In this document: piece by piece, positions 5,498 to 17,000 of the stretch
Position numbering within the stretch: position 1 is the stretch's first letter
Layout: every line of letters begins with the position of its first letter
From: Saccoglossus kowalevskii
Taxonomy: Eukaryota > Hemichordata > Enteropneusta > Harrimaniidae
Direction of reading: 5' to 3'
Length of the DNA: 22,459 nt
NCBI RefSeq assembly: GCF_000003605.2
Contig: NW_003122409.1
Span: 989,939 to 1,012,397 of the forward strand
Program-made: the position numbers and the translations under genes
Notes under the pieces: model-generated
The model's database searches: none
Seen by the model: the letters and a program-made list of their open reading frames with translations, nothing else
Told to the model about the DNA's origin: nothing

Positions 5498-8400
5498 CTA
5501 AAATTCCCAGTGTTTGAGCACCATCTCCCGACGACTACATTCTTCAAACGCCGAAGAAACTGAACTTTTCCTCTCCATCAAATCGACATATTCAAAGGTT
5601 GGTGCAGCGTTTCTATTACTACCTTTTTTAATAGGCATCTCCACTAACTGTCTGCCAAGTTGTTCAAGATATGCCATCATAGACATACATTCCACCATGT
5701 TACCTGAATTTACATTGAATGACTCGTGGAGACATCGTAAAAGGTTGGAATACTCTTCATTGAATCTGTCTGACACATATCGTACCTTTGAACTGTCAGG
5801 GTACAGAGTACTTGAGGGATTGTCAATTGTTGGCCAAACCCCGTTTTCATAAAATGAAACCTTCTCGCCAGTGAAATAATAAGGCACACCACATTTGGTA
5901 ATAACGTTCGTTGCCCGGCAATCATTTACTTCACTTCCGCAGGTTGTTAATTTTGAGAACATTGATGCGTAACTAAGGTGACAAATGTTTCCCATATCTT
6001 CTTTCCCAAATTCTTGCAATGTAGGTTCATGAAGAACAATTCTGTATCCCATTACAATTTCCAGAAATTTGTAGTAATGTGAGAGTTCACCTAAAGAGTC
6101 ATAAGGCTGGGTTGGAGAACTTCCTTCACCTTGTTCAGTTATTAATTGAATTGCTCTCCATGCATCACTGAGATTCATCACTGCAAATGGCTTTTCAACA
6201 ACATGACTATACCATTGCTGTTCAGTAACTTGTTTATTAACATTGGCGCAGGAAAACAGATTATCTTGAGTACTGGCAAGATAGTTAAGAGATTGCCATA
6301 TATTCTGATAATAAAATTGTCCAATTGTGTCGTAATGATGGTATGGAATTTCTGTTTCTTCAGTGGACTCGTGTGGGGGAGGTAGAGTTTGTCGAAATGT
6401 TAAAGGTAATGTTTCATCTGGTTCCTCAATTTTAAGAAAGACATCCTCCACGAGACCAAGAGAAAACCGCCCAAGTGACACTGTAAGTCCTGGATGTACA
6501 TTTCCAGGCAGTGTTGTTGGGTAACGGGGGATGACAGAACTTTCATTTAAGGTCGGACTTCCACATATACTACTGAGTATATTGGCCACAAGTGTCATGT
6601 GAAGCATTTCTTCCAAAACAACACTTCTTAAAATATTGGCTACTTCGTTGTTATGTCCTTTGCGAATTGAAAACAATGCACTGAGGTAAGGCGGAATTGT
6701 AGACAGTTCAATTTCTAACGCAGTTTGTAAATAACCATGTAACTCTTCTAAAGTTACGAGTGGGCGTGTGCCAAGTTTAGGGTCATCAAGCCATTCTAAA
6801 ACAGCTGATTGTTTACTGTTAGAAAGATCACGTGTTACGGGCATATATGATGGATCCGTGATTGGTAAACTCATGGTAGCTTTTATCATTTCTTTTTTCC
6901 GCACCACATCTTCATACGATGCCAGGTTCAGAATACTAGTCATAGTTGGAAACATATTAGCATACATTTTGAAAATTGGGTATATGTCTTGGTACCAGGT
7001 TGGACCATCTTCTGATACAGTGTATGAACTATAAAGCAATATAGCAATGGGAAAATCAGTAGAAAGAAGCATTGGTATTTCAACCTCCATATGGTAAAAA
7101 TACAGCTGTCCCTCTATAGGTCGTGGGTTACCTGGATTGTAGCTATGGAAATTAAATGAAGCAATTCCATTATGATCTGTTGTTGCACACAATGTGTGAT
7201 TTACTGCTTCTTCTGGTTGGTTGTACGGATATCTTTTGTTGCCACACCAAGTTCCATTAATCGAGTTGTCTGGCTGCAATCGCAGCTGTAGCCCAATGGC
7301 GGGGTCACCAAAATACATCACAAATGCCTTAACTTCCCATTTATCACCAGGATTCACGCGCCAGACAGAATCGCCCATCACGCCAATGCTAAAACCATGG
7401 TAATGTTCCTTCAATATCACGTCAGTGCAATCCTTTGTCTCTCTGTGCAATTGTCTAATCAACAATGGCCGGTTGTGGAGCATATGTAGCTGTTTCAACG
7501 TCAAAATACCAGTTTCCGGAATTTGAACAATGCCAGCTGTCCGCGTGTACCAATTAGAATCACTGTAAGGAATATAACCCAGCACATCCACTGGTGTGCT
7601 ACAATCAAAACGTGTATTTATTTCAAGAGGGTAGACCACCTGTAGCACTTCGTTTATGAACGGATCCGGATTTCCTTCTAGATTATGTGTAAGGCTATTA
7701 CCGAGATCTATCAGTAGTTTACCACGTTCATACAAAACTCTGAATATTGACTTTCCAAAGTTGACGTTCGTAGAGTGAAGTTCCCTGTGACGGAGCATGT
7801 GTAAAGGTTCAGCAGAGCCCGCCACTCCAATTGACCCAACTAAACGTCCCTGTGAAAAATTACTGAACTGTTTTTGGTACTCAAAATAGTCTAAAATAAT
7901 CTTTATTGATAGGACATTTGGCTGAGGGGTTTGTGAACTGAGGTCCATCATCTGCCTAACAACAACAAGTCCTTTGTTTGTATCATCCCATTCCACATCA
8001 ACCAGCAGTGATTGGAACACAACCCCTGTCGCCTCGTCGTATCTTCGCTCATGTACTTTGTTGAAGTTTGGCTCTCTTATAGATGACTCTAAGTATCTTC
8101 CTGTGAAAGTGTCATGAACAGTCAGATGCATACCATATATCGTCGATGCTATGTGATAAGACGGGTCCAAATCTGCCAATATGGCTTGAGGTCGGTGTTT
8201 ATTGCCTGTGTTCGAAAAAATTAATATAGTGAAACAAGATATTAATTATTTCATAGGTCTTCTGAAGGGTTGATTACTTTATCTTTATTTCTATAGCTGT
8301 ATTTCAAATTAGTAGATGTAGATTATACACCACGAGATTTGTTCAGTCTTGTAAACCCAGTAATAATCTTACGTTTATGCGTGATCGTGGTACACAATAT

Positions 8401-9737
8401 GTGTCTCTACATTTCAATATAAGTATATAGGAGGATATAGAATAAATATTCAGTTACCATTTCAAATTAAAATAATTTTGAAAGATTTGTGTTCAGTTGC
8501 TCATAAACAGAATTTTTTGATACATTTTTACAGTCATTTTATATTATATTTGATATATATATATACCACTATTTCTGGCATTAAATGTCATTTCTTTGGT
8601 AGATTATTTGTACATATCTTACACATACATTATATTTATGTATTTAAAGATTTAATAAAAATCCCATCATGTTAGTTTGTTTAGTCTGAGTTCATATATG
8701 TTGTCAGTTTGTTCAGTTTGAGTGCATATATGTTGTTAGTTTGTTCAGTTTGAGTTCATATATGTTGTTAATTTGTTCAGTTTGAGTTCATATATGTTGT
8801 CAGTTTGTTCAGTTTGAGTTCATATATGTTGTTAGTTTGTTCAGTTTGAGTTCATATATGTTGTCAGTTTGTTCAGTTTGAGTTCATATATGTTGTTGGT
8901 TTGTTCAGTTTGAGTTCACATATGTTGTCAGTTTGTTCAGTTTGAGTTCGTGTATGTTGTTGGTTTGTTCAGTTTGAGTTCATATATGTTGTCAGTTTGT
9001 TCAGTTTGAGTTCATGTATGTTGTCAGTTTGTTCAGTTTGAGTTCATATATGTTGTTAGTTTGTTCAGTTTGAGTTCATATATGTTGACAGTTTGTTCTG
9101 TTCGAGTTCATATATGCTGTTACTTCAGTTTGAGTTCTTTATATTTCGCTAGTTCAGACCCACAATTAATTCAACGGTATAAAACTTACTTATAACGGCT
9201 TTGCCTATTAAGTCATCTTTTTCTGTGACGCATTCGCCATTTTTATAACACACTGAAGTAACTTTACAGTCTTCTAAATAAAACCTGCCACTTCCTTTAG
9301 CATTCCACAATAGCAAGCATTCTTGTTCTCGTAACTTCTGATCAAATGTTTTGATATCATAATTATCACATACATTGTTACCAGTTGGTGCGTCTGCTCT
9401 GTAGTAACCGGCGAAATGTATTCTGGGCCAGTCAAGATAGGAATGGCTTTTTCCTGCAAATAAAATAACGATGTTTAAAGTACATACAAATATAATATAA
9501 TACAATGTGAACCTGTCTGCTGTCATAGCATCAATAAATCTCATTATAGCGTCATTACGTAAAACATGTCATTCACACAGTTCACTATCATAGACTTTTA
9601 GTAGGATTGTTGTGCTTACCTGGGTGATGTTGAGAGGCCTCTGCTATCCATTCTTGTTTATTGAAGTCTGTCAAACACCGATCAAAAAACACTGTCAACA
9701 CAACCGCTATTAAGCCTTTTCTGTGTTTCGTCTTCAT
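5498..9737 (-). CDS. Secreted VioB/RebD-like dimer synthase, 3 exons
   Basis: Family: the bacterial VioB/RebD/StaD enzymes couple two tryptophan-derived imines into chromopyrrolic acid or a related dimer on the violacein, rebeccamycin and staurosporine pathways. Gene model: exon 1 9737-9620, exon 2 9453-9190, exon 3 8205-5498. The donors are gtaagc and gtaagt, the acceptors tttgcag and acacag. Both introns are phase 1, both joins keep the frame (Gly40 and Ser128), and the product is 1029 residues, the usual family size of about 1000. Residues 8-18 form the hydrophobic core of a signal peptide. Residues 46-66 carry the family N-terminal motif (LDWPRIHFAG, then DAPTGNN). The ferritin-like domain spans about 613-846: TIPPY near E627, E660xxH663 and the HYYKF motif at H837 with E843. 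A C-terminal block (GVWPTIDNP, then FNEEY) also matches the family. Five N-glycosylation sequons and 19 cysteines fit secretion. Substrate and product in this animal are unknown. The family call is firm; the exact start codon is less so. Confidence 0.9.
8206..9189 (-). other. Intron 2 of the VioB-like gene
   Basis: This is a 984-bp phase-1 intron. The donor is gtaagt at 9189 and the acceptor is acacag ending at 8206, preceded by a T-rich tract. Splicing joins A to GC to make Ser128. About half of the intron is the 32-bp minisatellite; the rest is AT-rich and includes a short TA run near 8550-8570. No second gene is visible in it. Confidence 0.8.
8671..9137. repeat. 32-bp minisatellite, about 14.5 copies
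   Basis: Tandem units of 32 bp are seen, each containing TTTGTTCAGTTTGAGTTCA and then TATATGTTGT. Each unit looks like three sub-words of about 9-12 bp that begin with CA (CAGTTTGTT, CAGTTTGAGTT, CATATATGTTGT). Units differ mainly at one spot, either GTCAG or GTTAG/GTTGG, and the two types mostly alternate along the array. This suggests growth by 64-bp dimers. The outer units are the most diverged: the left edge has TTTAGTCTG, and the right edge has TTCTGTTCGAG plus a deletion. The array lies wholly inside intron 2. Confidence 0.93.
9454..9619 (-). other. Intron 1 of the VioB-like gene
   Basis: A 166-bp phase-1 intron with donor gtaagc and acceptor tttatttgcag. Splicing joins the signal-peptide exon to the conserved enzyme body (G|GA, Gly40). 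The last 91 nt (from an ATG at 9544) are also open in the exon 2 frame. They encode a second hydrophobic, signal-peptide-like leader (LYYIIFVCTLNIVILFA). An alternative first exon starting inside this intron is therefore possible. Confidence 0.75.
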
Positions 9738-9837: not shown

Positions 9838-12753
9838 AGACGAAAGGATGAAACTCTTTCTCCGAGATGCCGTGCTTGTTTTGTGCTCTTGTCAGTTGCT
9901 TACACACTTGTTCGTCCCAATGTTAAGTGTTCGTGGGCATGGAAATAGAAACGAATCTCACGTCATAATTACGCCCACATTACGATTGGTGATTCTGTTG
10001 CGTGCTATATGCTATCGACTTTTATTTGCGATGACATTTGGCGTCGAACGTTTGTGCTACGCAAGTCTATGAGAGGAATCATAGCCCTTCTGTGTCGATA
10101 CAAATCTCAATATCTGAAAATAACAAATTTAATGACACCAAATATAATAGAATTGACTAAAATGCCATCACAAAGACTATGTTATTATGCCTAAACTTGT
10201 TGGTTGCAAACACAGCTGGTGTACAAGTGATAATAAAATGAAAGCGACTAATCTACTAGTTGGGGGTCTATAGACTTTCTTGTGTCTTTGTGACAGTATT
10301 TTAGTCATTTTGTGATACATTTAGTGTCATTACAATTGCTTATTTCAGACATACGGATTGTTATCCTAAATATAAAAGGCTCCCCTCATTATGAGATACA
10401 CATGCTTCTAAATGAGCTACATCGTGAATTATCGAAATTACAAAAATAGCTAAAATAGGTAAAATGGTGGTCATTTTGAATACGAGTAATTATTGTGCTC
10501 GTGATAAATACAAATTTGATGAGCTACGAGATCAAGAGTCAATCTACTTTATGTTTGCGGACACAATTCGATCAAAAAAGGCGTCTCGCCTGCTGTGAAT
10601 GGTGGCCCACCCCACAGTTCATATTGAAACTGTGGCTACTACATCATGTAGCTAATATTTCGGGCTCGTATACGCCAGTGTATTAACGGCAACGAGCAAT
10701 ACGTTGTTCATATACTTTATATGAAATAACCTTACCAAATAATAAATTCATTGATATTTACCTTGTTTATCCCTAGAGCTTTGACACCGTGGTATTAAGT
10801 GAGTCAAAAGTTCCAGTCCTTTTCTACATCGAAGTACATCAATATTATTGATATTCATTATCAGTACTCAGCTGGATTGCACATGGGCGCATATATTATC
10901 ATTCAACAAAGCGAATAAACAAGCAAACACATATCAGTATCTTAATCAAATGCTTACAGTGAAAATTAATATAGTCTAAGCAGCTTCGTGCTTGTGGGGT
11001 CCGTTCCATATACGTCCAGATTGATTATAATAACACCGAATTATATTATAGAGATTAGAAGGTTACTCGTTTTAGTATCTTCAACGGATTATGCAAATTA
11101 CTGCAATATTTGTAATACATGATGGTATGCACATATGTACTTGTACGTACACGCTTCTGTCAATTTACAAACGGACAATTATGCATCATTGAAAAAGTTT
11201 TCACGTGGTACGTCGACATAATCATTAATCACAGAGAGGCGATCGACAATTTGTACCGGTCAACACCGACGATGTAACGGAGAACCTGTCTGAACCACGG
11301 CAATACTCGAGGCACATGCTAGTACTATCCCGTACTCCGCTTTTGCTAATATCTTCTAACTAGTATATGTAATCAAACATCTTTAACAAATAGCCACTGT
11401 GTATTGTGCTATTTTATAAAACGAGACTTACTAATCGACAATTGGAGGGGCAAATATGACATTCGAATTAGTCTAACGACAATTTGCAATCTCTCTTTTC
11501 ATCATTAATTAAGTATTTTGTCACAAAATACTATCAACCACCCACAATTTTCAAATGGAGCACTTCGTAATAACCATAAACCTTTTTTATAATATAGTTG
11601 TCTAGGCATTTGTAATTACTTCGCCGTGATTTGTAAGGGATAACCAATTCGTGAAAATGTGTTTGTGGCAGGTTACAGGGGTATATTACAGAGAGTTTGT
11701 AATGGATATCATTCATTGGGACATCATGCAACTTAACAGTACTCAGTATACAGACCAATGTTTCCACTTCAGACATAATATTAATGGATTCGTGAGATTT
11801 AATTTATCATCTCTGACATCGTGGCAACATGTGTGTGTTTTGGGGGGCGTCGATGTGAACAATGATATATGTATATTAATATTTATCTGATGGAATTCAT
11901 CACCTCTGACACTGTGACAACATACAAACATGTATATATTTGGGGGGGCATGGACAATGTAATCAATCATTCATATCGTGACCTTATTACGCTGTAAATA
12001 CTTATAAGTTGAAATATATATTTATATGTCTGAGTGGGTGAGGGATTATACACCAGTGCACAGAACTTTGATTGTATACGTGAATAGAAATTAAGGTAAT
12101 GTTTAATATTTGACAATACAATTTGAATGTGATCAAATATACGATATGCTGCAGTGGAAATGTTGAAGAGTAGACGAATTTCACGCCATAAATTAATATG
12201 TCTAGTATGTCTTCTTCTTTTTTATATAGTTGAAATGTCATTCTAATTGGACCCAGCACTAGTTATTTTGTTCAGACGGTTGGATGATTGGTGATAAAAA
12301 CAGATATCCACCAGAATTCTGCATTGAGAACGGAATCAATAGATATAACAATGAGTTAGCCAGTGATTTGACCAGATGTAAATATGGACTGGGAACATAT
12401 GCCCCTGTGCCTGTGTGTAACTTGTATACTTTGGTTGAACATTGACTAGAAAAACCTCACTTAGCTGCAAATTCCTGGAGAGTCTCTAAGCATGTAATTG
12501 AAACGGTGCTAGACTCATTGTAAGCTTCCATGGTCAGTATTGGTGGTCGTTCTGGAGATGCAATGGCTTTGCTGCCAAAAGTGGCAGGAGAAGTGGAAAC
12601 CGAAGTCTCGCTGGCCAATATTGGATATCCGCTGACATTTCTCTAGTACTGCATAAATCAATGGGGATGGTAGGAATGCATCGATTCACCCATGATATCA
12701 ATATATCCCTCGAATGTGCATATGGGGCTGGCTGATATGCCACAGTATTGATT
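9838..12753. other. Intergenic region upstream of the VioB-like gene
   Basis: No gene with recognisable homology was found. Plus-strand frames such as 9848-10072 (opening MKLFLRDAVLVLCS, faintly signal-peptide-like) and 12284-12445 are short and unsupported by splice sites or known motifs. A diverged local duplication occurs at 11799-11960. No partner enzyme for the VioB-like gene, such as an amino-acid oxidase, is visible. Confidence 0.55.
11799..11960. repeat. Diverged two-copy tandem duplication with G-runs
   Basis: Two modules about 93 bp apart share the same order of words: TCATC, CTCTGACA, GTGNCAACAT, a GT- or TA-rich spacer, a run of six or seven G, then GAACAATG or GGACAATG. The first is near 11799-11868 and the second near 11892-11960. 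The similarity is partial, so this is an old duplication or two copies of an unknown short repeat. Confidence 0.5.
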
Positions 12754-12776
12754 GGGTTGGGTTTGGTTGGGTTGGG
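12754..12776 (+). repeat. G-rich GGGTT repeat, G-quadruplex motif
   Basis: Four GGG tracts (12754, 12759, 12769, 12774) are separated by loops of 2, 7 and 2 nt, which meets the standard G3N1-7 quadruplex pattern on the plus strand. The word GGGTT resembles a telomeric or GGGTT simple repeat. It stands alone in otherwise ordinary sequence. Confidence 0.6.
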
Positions 12777-12779
12777 TTG

Positions 12780-14099
12780 CGTTGTGCCTGAGGCAAAACA
12801 GATCTATCAGAGAATTGCTAGTCATTGTTTGAGTACAAGTGCTTCTGTGATGTCACATGAACCACACTGTTTATTTCCTGCCAAGTGATGAGCTTCTAAC
12901 TAACTTGATTTCCTTCTCGCTGCACCACATCATCTCCTCCGCCAGCTGACTTAGTGTTGGTTATCTCACCCTCCGGTTTTGTGCCTTGAGTCGCTACTGT
13001 TGAGAGCTAACATATCTCTTATATGTTTATGTAACATCTCTCTTCCTTTGGGTGCCACTCTCCCTACTTTCAAGTTTGTGACCAAGGTCATGCAGATTAT
13101 GGATGAAAGTGATGAATCAATCTTTGATCTCTGTCATAGATATACTAAGTCTATACTTCATTTGAGGGTGGTTAGACTTCCATGATCCTTGCTATATGCG
13201 GAAGCAAGTTACCACGACCCCTGCCATCGAGATCATAGACATCTCAACCTCGCCAATCCTAGCCACTTCGACCCCGATATCGTACAACGTTGTATAAGAA
13301 TACTTACATGATTTCCTTAAATGTGTTATCCACTATATTCATTTCACTGACTAATCTCATGTAAATTTATGTTTCTCATTTCACAGTGTGCAATGTCGTC
13401 AGTGACGCCATCTTGGCAGTAAGTAGTATGGCGATTGTCACGTTGTTTTCGGTGTGAATAATAAGCCGATGACGTGCCGACTGCTTCCAAAACTATTGAC
13501 TCTTGATTAAAAGCGTGATAGAAGCAATTATGACAAGGAATGTCTTAACAAGTTTTTTTATTTCATCCTTGGGCACACTTGATTATAGTTATACTACAAT
13601 AAATAACTATCATGAGTGTAGAATGTCTGCTTCATTCCCGGGGGTCACTATATTAAAACCTTACATCGTGTGCATTCTTGGTAAAAAATAATAGGCCCTA
13701 GGGCTGGCAGCACATTGGCAAACCATACCCCCTATTACGGACGCAATGTAAATTTAGTACCCACTAGAGCAGACATATTAAAGAAAAAACATCCCTATTG
13801 CAGACATATAATTGGATGTGCGCCGAGTGGCAGCCTCCATACTCCTCTCCTGGAAAACTACCGAGTTTACCCTGTTAATGTTTGGTATTGCCTGTATTTG
13901 GAACCATACACACATCTATGAACTGTCAAGGACCTTACTTGTGAAGTTTGTTACTCATATCGTCGATTCCTGTTTCCAAATTTATCAAAAGAAAACCTGG
14001 TCTGTGTTACAACTGAACTTACTCTGTGACATAATTTATGCATGTTTCATTGTCTTGACTAAGTTACATAACTCCTGGTGCCACTGATTACCTCACTAT
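12780..14099. other. Intergenic region before the LINE
   Basis: No gene recognised. The part from about 13690 onward may already be the 5' UTR or ORF1 remains of the LINE that follows, because no clear left boundary can be seen. Short plus-strand frames here show no known domain. Confidence 0.4.
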
Positions 14100-17000
14100 T
14101 CATATGATGATTGTCCATTCAATACACAGTGCATTACAACACCTCCACTCTGAAGTTTTTCAACACCAACCTCCGTTTATGATACTGTAAAATCACTGAA
14201 TATCCGGGCATGTTGTGCTACAAACAGAGGCAAAAGAGCGGGCTCACATATACAGGATCAACCACATAAAGTAAGCTACATCAAAACAATACAACCAACC
14301 TGCAAACAAGCTTCATTTTGTTATAATGCAAATCGGACCAACTTTGACATTCTCATCTACATTCCACTAGTAAATACAACAAATGGCGGTACCCAGAACA
14401 CCATTCAGTGTCAACCCCAACTTCTTCTCTCAACCTGGAATATTCGCTTCGTTCGTAACAAAGCATCAGATGTACAAGATTATATTACTGAAAAGAATAT
14501 TGACGTAATTGCACTCACAGAAACCTGGCTCAAAGACACCGGAGATGACCAGTTGGATACACTTTCAAGCAAACACCACGTGCAGGATCGGCTGGTGGTG
14601 GTGACGCTATCATCTATAAGTCATCACTAAAACTTGTAACATGGAAACCTCTCAGCCAAATTTCATCCTTTGAAGCTACAGAGGCCACATTTTCTCGCCA
14701 TGGTACTATCTTCAAACTTGTGGCTCTATATCGTCCACCACCTTCAAGAAAAAACAAACTCACTACTACCCAGTTTCCAACAGAGTTCAGCTCTCTGTTG
14801 GAGAAATATGCAGCATGTACTGGTTACCTGTATTTTGTCAGGGATTTTAATTTACATCATAATGATCCCTGTTATTCCAGTGCCAAAAAATTCTCTGACA
14901 TCATTGAAGGTTGCAACCTCAAGCAGTGGGTAAATGAGGCAACTCATATAAAAGGTCATATACTAGATCTAATCATCTCCAACTCTGCAGATACAATCAA
15001 AGGTGTTACTGTCGACCAACTCCAACTGTCTGATCATAATCCTGTTAATACCACACTTGTGTATTGTAAGCCACCACTCTCCAAAAAGCGAATAACTTAT
15101 CAAAGTATTAAATCAATTTCACTTGATGATTTCCAGAGTGGCCTAGAAGTATCTCCTGAGATTATCCTGCCTTCATCCGTTCCACAGACTGCCATCTTAC
15201 AATTCAATACAACTCTCTCGGACATTCTTGATAAGCACGCTCCTGTTAAAAAGCGGGTCATCACTCTACGCCCAGATAGTAAATGGTACACAACTGACAT
15301 CAATTTGGCGATTTGATCAGCTGAAAAAAATGGAGGTCTACTGCACTAGAAATTCACAGACAAATTTTCAAACATGAATGCAAGAAAGTCAGCCAGCTCA
15401 TACGTAAATCAGTAAATACGTAAACAGTCTTAATACACCAACCTTATCAAGGACCATGTTCATGATCAACAATTCGCATCTGTTCAAACCTATCTGGGAA
15501 CTCAAGTCAGAAACAGCTACCATCACATATCATGATCAAGAATATTAAATACAATAAAAGCAACTTGGGGACGGATAACGAACAACTTATACTAATATAT
15601 ACTAAAAAAGTAAAAATGACAAAACAATCATTGAGCTAGGAAAATTCATCCACACTTGTTTCAATTTACGACAATTAAAATCCTAAAATGCCAGATGCCT
15701 CAACCAACCACCAAATATTTTTTTTCTTTCCTCTTCTTTTCTTTATTCAAATTTCTGTGAATGTCTTGTGTTTTTTGTTTGCTATCTTTTTGTATTACTT
15801 TATTGTATTTTCAACTAAGATCCCACTCTGGGATAGGGTTTCAATAAAGATTATTATTATTATTATTATTTACTTCCAAGATCCTGGAGAAAGTCGTAGC
15901 GCTACAACTGAATTCATATCTTTCTGAACATTCATTACTTGAACCTTCACAATCTGCATATAAGAGATTTCATAGCACTGAAACAGCACTTTTAAAGGTC
16001 CATAATGACATTTGCATGTGTACTTCTTATCCTTCTGGATTTATCCGCATGCCTTCGATACAATTGACCATGATATACTTCTAACAAGATTGTTCAACCT
16101 TGGCATTACTGATACTTCACTTCTCTGGTTCACTTCTTATCTGTAGGATCGTCATCAGCGTGTTTCCATCAATGATAGTCGCTCCGCTTCTCATGTACTT
16201 AAAACCGGGGTTCCCCGAGGGTCTGTTCTAGGACCTCCGCTATTCTCCATTTATATATCACCACTAGGTCAACTTATTCGTTGTCATAAATGTAGTGTTA
16301 ATTTCCATCAGTATGCTGATGACAACCAACTCTACCTCGCTTTCTCATACCCTGAGATGCACTGTCTTCAGTCAGCATAATTAAAAGTACAGCTCGTGAC
16401 ATTAAATCATGGATGTCATGCAAGAAATTAAAGTTGAATGATGATAAAACTGAGGCTCTTCTAATTAGATCACCGTTTAACCACATTCCATGCCCAATAG
16501 AGAATATTCTCATTGGTTCCAGCGTTCCAGATGGCAAGAAACATCAGGGTCATCTTTGATCATCATCACAGCTTCAAGAAGGACACATCTGCAACATGTC
16601 GGTCTATATACTTTCACCTACGTAAAATTGGTCACATACAACGCTTCCTCTCCAAAAATACATGTACAATAATTATTCATGCATATATCTTCAAAACTTG
16701 ACTACGGCAACTCACTTCTATTTGGAATACCAGAGAACACTACAAAGCCACTAAAACATGCCCAGAACACAGCAGCAAGAATTGTTACACACACAAAGAA
16801 ACGTGAACACATTACACCGATTCTACAAAATTTGCATTGGCTACTGGTAAAACTCAGAATTGAATACAAGGTGCTACAAAGCACTGAATAACATGTCACC
16901 TTGTTACATATCAGACATAATTCACTTTAGATCTTCACCTCGCAAACTTCATTCAACAAATAAGTAACTCTTGCATGAACAAAGATACCAATCAGATTCA

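Follow-up and report, generated by a model that had tools for sequence, protein, structure and literature searches.

We analyzed a 22,459-nucleotide (nt) stretch of the genome of the acorn worm Saccoglossus kowalevskii (C1491:989939-1012397, contig NW_003122409.1), referred to here as the window, and found on its minus strand, from position 9737 to 5498, a gene related over both of its parts to a family that bacteria usually encode as two neighboring genes. This is almost certainly a genuine animal nuclear gene under selection. The explanation that accounts best for the data, in which we have middling confidence, is that it would encode a secreted, fused, bacterial-type oxidative metalloenzyme acting on a small molecule.

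Gene model and ferritin-like domain

The spliced frame was rebuilt from the window as three minus-strand exons separated by two GT-AG introns, and its product has 1029 amino acids (aa), with no internal stops. Exon 1 (9620..9737; 39 codons plus one base) contains the start codon and a signal-peptide-like stretch (MKTKHRK followed by GLIAVVLTVFF). After intron 1 (9454..9619), exon 2 (9190..9453) begins the N-terminal part and carries the SYLDWPRIHFAG motif; beyond intron 2 (8206..9189), exon 3 (5498..8205) encodes the remainder of the N-terminal part, the ferritin-like domain, the C-terminal region, and the stop codon. An initial annotation of this DNA had proposed an intron-bearing frame of 1029 residues with a set of named motifs, and this was borne out, with all six located: DWPRIHF (aa 47-53), TIPPY after E627, EEMLH, HYYKF, GVWPTIDNP, and FNEEY. 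The N-terminal part (aa 44-606, 6770..9442, spliced across exons 2 and 3) has as its homologue a separate bacterial protein of ~640 aa.

The only Pfam family found in the protein at an E value of 0.1 or better was PF12902 (200.3 bits against a cut-off of 22.3, E 5e-59), which confirms, well past chance, the ferritin-like domain expected from the initial annotation. The match spans positions 1-220 of the 221 in the model, a score that places the protein in the superfamily, and corresponds to aa 620-845 (6053..6730). The same scan gave no match to the ferritin family PF00210. Among known structures, the PDB search returned only 3hl1 (E 4.8e-8), with a 915-aa open reading frame (ORF) as the query; no match was obtained with a 294-aa piece or with the alignment profile, in which N and C fragments were mixed.

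Five presumed metal ligands were identical in all 85 aligned rows, which comprised 3 animal, 3 VioB, 3 RebD-like, 53 two-part or fused, and 23 C-only sequences. These are E627 (6707..6709), E660 and H663 of the ExxH motif (6599..6610), E821 in QGEG (6125..6127), and H837 in SHYYKF (6077..6079). A Glu/ExxH/Glu/His pattern of this kind is that expected of a two-metal ferritin-like site. Judged by these residues, the protein is likely to be a catalytic metalloenzyme.

Bacterial relatives encoded as gene pairs

The relatives came from one genome-collection scan restricted to stretches with two short peptide patterns, with relatives lacking these patterns, VioB included, outside its sample; it yielded 211 confirmed stretches, of which the best 80 were kept. 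Fifty-one of these 80 loci were split into separate genes, one was fused (L015), and the remaining 28 gave a match to the C query alone. Of the 52 loci having both parts, 51 thus keep the halves separate, as an N protein of ~640 aa and a PF12902 ferritin-like C protein of ~350 aa, and in 49 of these 51 the two genes share a strand, with the N stop 0-400 nt ahead of the aligned C part. The exceptions were L036 and L037, where the best N and C matches were not neighbors in that order. A wider set of 124 loci contained 55 split, 1 fused, 63 C-only, and 2 N-only loci, together with 3 having neither half at E 1e-4, all of them VioB or RebD-like; among the 55 split loci, L099 and L033 denote one and the same locus, and the counts given elsewhere refer to the set of 80.

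The window protein matched both halves of this two-part family, with ~24-30% identity in the N part and ~29-35% in the C part to pairs from, e.g., Azospirillum, Aureibacter, Gloeothece, Mycetohabitans, and Dyadobacter. The bacterial two-part rows also shared the first proline of TIPPY (53/53), the H-Y dipeptide (50/53), and the metal-ligand set. Unlike the animal gene, the bacterial pair consists of separate genes, its N protein starts with MSYL and has no signal-like extension, and its proteins have fewer cysteines on average. In the five annotated plasmid loci, the pair is labeled 'hypothetical protein' and 'ferritin-like protein'. Among the relatives found, these uncharacterised operons of two genes come closest by sequence.

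The animal gene is not arranged as two adjacent genes but as a single fused one, as in L015, a fused open frame of 1003 aa in a metagenome-assembled genome of the class Acidimicrobiia (JANYDT010000110.1). L015 gave the strongest match in the scan (E 5e-123) and stood closest to the animals in the tree of the N part (86/85, not starred), although its identity to the animal protein is just 31%. Of 296 genomes searched in this class, 25 matched, and L015 was the only one with N and C matches in a single frame. No relative was detected in phage records, viral contigs, or PHROGs.

As for other eukaryotes, PF12902 genes near lodA/lodB-like genes are described for the fungus Gymnopus luxurians in the available text of PMC4417212. 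No animal member of PF12902 was named in the literature searched, which lay outside most subscription journals and the protein databases, except in PMC7563238, where 'ferritin-like domains (PF12902)' are mentioned for Schistosoma vesicles. The accessible text of that paper discusses iron-storage ferritins, and we suspect that the label is a wrong accession number.

Relationship to VioB and RebD

The initial annotation took the product for a VioB/RebD-like indole dimer synthase, and we therefore compared it with both types. Three true VioB loci, from Pseudoduganella violacea, Chromobacterium sphagni, and Pseudoalteromonas luteoviolacea, were each adjoined by a VioA-like oxidase gene (3/3). Three Streptomyces proteins scored 733-792 bits against the VioB equivalog model TIGR04492, below its cut-off of 1250, and are called RebD-like on this score; they make up the RebD side of the comparison. 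The exon-3 frame of the window gave no TIGR04492 match at E values up to 1, and two animal paralogs reached 24.6 and 27.6 bits, whereas true VioB reached 1625. A search of the whole animal genome with the VioB model found no match, but it gave no positive control.

Trees were built separately for the two protein halves, from 40 of the 85 rows for the careful C tree and from 34 rows for the N tree; the 85-row tree held 23 of the 63 C-only loci and omitted L096, L097, and L099 from the 55 split ones. In both half-protein trees, the three VioB and three RebD-like rows formed a clade of their own (100/100), and the three animal rows formed another, outside it. The approximately unbiased (AU) tests did not reject the animals as neighbors of the VioB/RebD branch (p 0.396), of L015/L145 (p 0.314), or of the C-only group (p 0.461), and gave them no placing within the non-VioB part; the first of these values concerns adjacency to the VioB/RebD clade, not membership in it. 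Sequence motifs agreed with the trees. In all six VioB/RebD-like rows TIPPY is replaced by LMLQY, and phenylalanine follows the last ligand histidine, where the window protein has Y838; the TIPPY and HYY motifs mark the non-VioB side of the family.

The animal protein thus shares with VioB/RebD/StaD-type chromopyrrolate synthases the superfamily, the ligand set, the DxPRxHF start, and a fused N-plus-C length of ~1000 aa (997-1011 aa in VioB), and differs from them in its clade, in LMLQY and H-F, in the TIGR04492 matches, and in the VioA-type oxidase that adjoins VioB. The initial annotation had read the motifs and the length of about 1000 residues as the full VioB/RebD pattern; motifs and length were as described, whereas the pattern was not confirmed as that of VioB/RebD, which has LMLQY and H-F instead. 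Likewise, homology over the whole length to this superfamily held, and the identity as a dimer synthase was not supported, with the protein lying outside the clade and giving no match to TIGR04492. The name 'indole dimer synthase' should in our view await an assay before use.

We also searched for the oxidase that such an enzyme would have as a partner. The VioA query found the neighbor of all three VioB genes and nothing at the three RebD-like loci; RebO-type oxidases would thus escape it. With this query, no VioA-like gene was detected in the available flanks of the bacterial two-part loci, and weak matches were seen in two C-only Dyadobacter loci; the animal genome gave no VioA-like match, in a search without a positive control. 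Eighteen exon-level matches to the amine oxidase family PF01593 were present in the animal genome. One of them, at C2341:164765-166033, is a single open frame with 214 bits and is a possible candidate for a partner oxidase. The tryptophan halogenase family PF04820 had no match in the animal genome.

These data bear on the view behind the initial annotation, that a working VioB/RebD-type enzyme couples two indole-3-pyruvate imines into a bisindole resembling chromopyrrolic acid within the animal. The VioB-like fused length, the invariant ligand set, an N-terminal blastp match to one of the three VioBs (E 3e-9), and the AU test that keeps the animals as the next branch to VioB/RebD are in its favor, and acorn worms are among the sources of indole alkaloids in the available part of a review (PMC11323739). 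The position outside the 100/100 clade, the exon 3 without a TIGR04492 match, TIPPY in place of LMLQY, and the VioA searches, with the limits given above, speak against it, and we consider it unlikely. Bisindole synthesis by the animal enzyme is possible, and a chemistry of indolepyruvate imines stands as a hypothesis.

Genomic context of the bacterial pairs

The ebo genes (EboA, TatD, EboC/UbiA, dehydroquinate-synthase-like, and EboE) flank 10 of the 52 two-part or fused loci, at distances of up to ~8 kb. Among annotated plasmids, those of Aureibacter, Mycetohabitans, and, in part, Gloeothece have them next to the pair. The available text of PMC6282210 reports for Nostoc that the ebo cluster carries precursors of scytonemin, a dimeric indole-phenol, into the periplasm, and for Pseudomonas a link between a cluster with ebo genes and a conjectured nematode repellent. 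Because of these neighbors and the roles reported for them in Nostoc and Pseudomonas, the context suggests that the bacterial pair may make an exported aromatic metabolite.

Other neighbors were also recorded. On the megaplasmid of Mycetohabitans endofungorum (L156), the pair, ebo genes, and genes for a LodA/GoxA-family oxidase and for a protein labeled tryptophan 7-halogenase occur within 15 kb, making this region a candidate biosynthetic cluster. A family of ~347 aa, with no Pfam match at E 0.01, was found near 10 of the 52 two-part or fused loci (L016, L031, L033, L036, L041, L045, L048, L055, L080, and L086), and also at L156:10506-11549. A further neighbor family, of 624 aa, was present in 23 of the 80 loci and is probably the GMC oxidoreductase seen in plasmid annotation beside single ferritin-like genes.

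Secretion and alternative roles

Exon 1, which was seen in the window copy only, contributes 39 residues with a basic start followed by a hydrophobic run (hydropathy peak of 3.2, aa 9-17), and its junction with exon 2 sits ~3 residues before the point where the bacterial N proteins start (MSYL). Cysteines were scored as animal-conserved when present in every covering animal row (two or three rows) and in no more than two bacterial rows, of which there were 31 for the N part and 82 for the C part. Fourteen columns were found (68, 108, 114, 329, 387, 448, 675, 780, 869, 883, 890, 899, 952, and 967), and residues 869, 883, and 890 fall in a stretch absent from the bacterial rows. The remaining cysteines were either not conserved or not covered (21, 85, 467, and 1017) or, in the case of Cys102, also present in 23 of the 31 bacterial rows. 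Because of these 14 animal-specific cysteines and the signal-like peptide of exon 1, we consider it likely that the protein is secreted. Of the secreted, intron-bearing animal version envisaged by the initial annotation, the intron-bearing animal gene stands, and secretion remains a probable trait, predicted from exon 1 and the cysteines.

A secreted protein with such a domain could also be a redox protein without a biosynthetic role, handling peroxide or iron in mucus or body fluid like a catalase or ferroxidase. The ferritin-like metal-site residues would suit this role, as would the heme described for RebD-type enzymes in the available text of PMC10851217; on the other hand, PF12902 is the sole Pfam family and PF00210 is missing, and the large N part has been kept under constraint, which would be superfluous for pure iron or peroxide handling. 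We regard this role as improbable, about on a par with the coupling of indole-3-pyruvate imines. Somewhat less probable still is that the fold was co-opted for structure or binding, as in a mucus, egg coat, or matrix protein, without catalysis: the animal-specific cysteines and the expansion of the gene family, with some copies decaying, are compatible with this, and the retention of all five ligand positions in the three animal rows argues against it.

Gene copies and selection in the animal genome

The contig holding the window is 1.36 Mb long, in a 572-Mb genome of 4830 contigs. On the mitochondrial contig (C4830, 17,037 bp), with genes named by eye from their translations, COX1 is inverted, cytochrome b precedes the frame taken as ND6, ND4L adjoins ND4, and ND2 comes before ND1; the codon AAA is in use, and AGG turned up once in nine gene frames. 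According to PMC3121625, an inverted COX1 and a transposed ND1 or ND2 distinguish Saccoglossus from Balanoglossus, AAA codes for Lys, and AGG is absent, and according to PMC2697986, ND4L and ND4 stand apart in echinoderms. ATA codons fall at sites of conserved isoleucines, which is to be expected in Ambulacraria. The host is thus most likely an acorn worm near Saccoglossus; an origin in a lancelet was rejected, as the gene order disagreed with the Asymmetron rearrangements of PMC2034537. A search of the genome for GFP gave no match, a weak negative in which no positive control responded. The PF12902 profile matched at least four genomic places on three contigs: the window, one on C357, and two on C3167. 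The C357 copy has an open main frame (904 aa) that shares 61% identity with that of the window across 873 codons; ~12 kb upstream of it revealed none of its first exons. The two divergent copies on C3167 (C3167:250596-251264 and 268710-269327), ~17 kb apart, are mutually ~95-96% identical in the pieces compared. Both contain in-frame stops, a single one in one copy and several in the other, and this pair is a recent duplication with decay.

The acceptor of exon 3, of phase 1 at Ser128, does not differ in residue or phase among the four copies; that of exon 2 was identical in offset and phase in the three copies where this exon was found, i.e., the window and both C3167 copies (C3167a and C3167b). 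These shared positions and phases support the introns independently, and the intron common to all copies therefore predates the duplications. The ratio of nonsynonymous to synonymous substitution rates (dN/dS) was 0.22 between the window and C357 (dS 1.3, 873 codons), 0.16 between the window and C3167a, and 0.19 between C357 and C3167a, the last two with dS of 2.0-2.4, near saturation; within the C3167 pair it was 0.18-0.32 in the pieces compared (dS 0.05-0.10). Such low values mean that the copies evolved under constraint, and the window and C357 copies are under purifying selection. The intact frame and dN/dS led us to reject pseudogene status for the window copy. Bacterial contamination or a dead remnant of transfer is very improbable and already contradicted for the window copy: all relatives in the searched collections were bacterial, but these hold no other animals, and the stops in the C3167 copies have to be set against the introns, the contig size, the copies on three contigs with a common intron position, the intact 1029-aa frame, and the dN/dS of 0.22; contamination was rejected on the introns, contig size, and paralogs.

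Other features of the window

Intron 2 holds a 32-bp tandem repeat of 14 copies (91% match, 8670-9120), and a short TTGGG-type tandem repeat lies at 12748-12784. At 14154-15316, two overlapping plus-strand ORFs with domains of the endonuclease and reverse transcriptase type (PF03372, and PF14529 slightly below its cut-off) are probably a remnant of a retrotransposon lacking long terminal repeats.

Discussion

A scheme of origin and action can be proposed. The gene was likely acquired from bacteria long ago and likely gained its introns later, along with a 5' exon supplying a secretion signal; the protein would then likely fold with disulfides in the secretory pathway and be exported. Its ferritin-like bundle may bind a two-metal center, probably of iron, through E627, E660, H663, E821, and H837, and this center would activate O2 or peroxide. 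A small substrate presented by the N part would be oxidised or coupled; that it derives from an aromatic amino acid, as an arylpyruvate or its imine, is a tentative assignment. The product could be a secreted metabolite of a defence or pigment type, e.g., in mucus.

Several points weigh against a secreted oxidative metalloenzyme of bacterial type. Both metals and activity are predicted from residues alone, and, since RebD-type enzymes are described as heme-containing (PMC10851217, available text), the invariant residues do not necessarily bind two irons. The predicted signal peptide is short and, by our own reading, lacks a clear cleavage motif, and N-glycosylation sequons are not enriched (5 seen vs. 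7.2 expected). The trees do not fix the donor or the direction of transfer. The ebo link is partial, at 10/52 loci vs. 1/28 C-only loci (Fisher p 0.086), and two of the five annotated plasmid loci, both from Azospirillum, show no ebo gene. The single C-only case, L025, begins at the end of a contig and clusters with the two-part loci in the tree; with this locus reassigned, the counts become 11/53 vs. 0/27 (Fisher p 0.013).

The animal has, under constraint, a fused and probably secreted form of a two-protein family of bacteria, itself probably oxidative. In it, a bacterial operon architecture is seen refitted: the two parts are fused, introns interrupt the gene, several copies exist, and a signal-like exon and new cysteines are present. 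The animal gene also gives a handle on a large uncharacterised bacterial two-part family and on its partial association with the ebo cluster for metabolite export. If the protein is an active oxidase, it would offer a concrete candidate, amenable to expression, for secondary metabolism encoded by an animal, in a group that figures among the sources of indole alkaloids. A bolder reading, which we hold as doubtful, is that a deuterostome makes an aromatic alkaloid through oxidative coupling (bisindole-, pyrrole-, or arylpyruvate-derived) for use outside its cells by means of its own secreted enzymes of bacterial origin; if true, some acorn-worm alkaloids would be made by the animal and not by symbionts.

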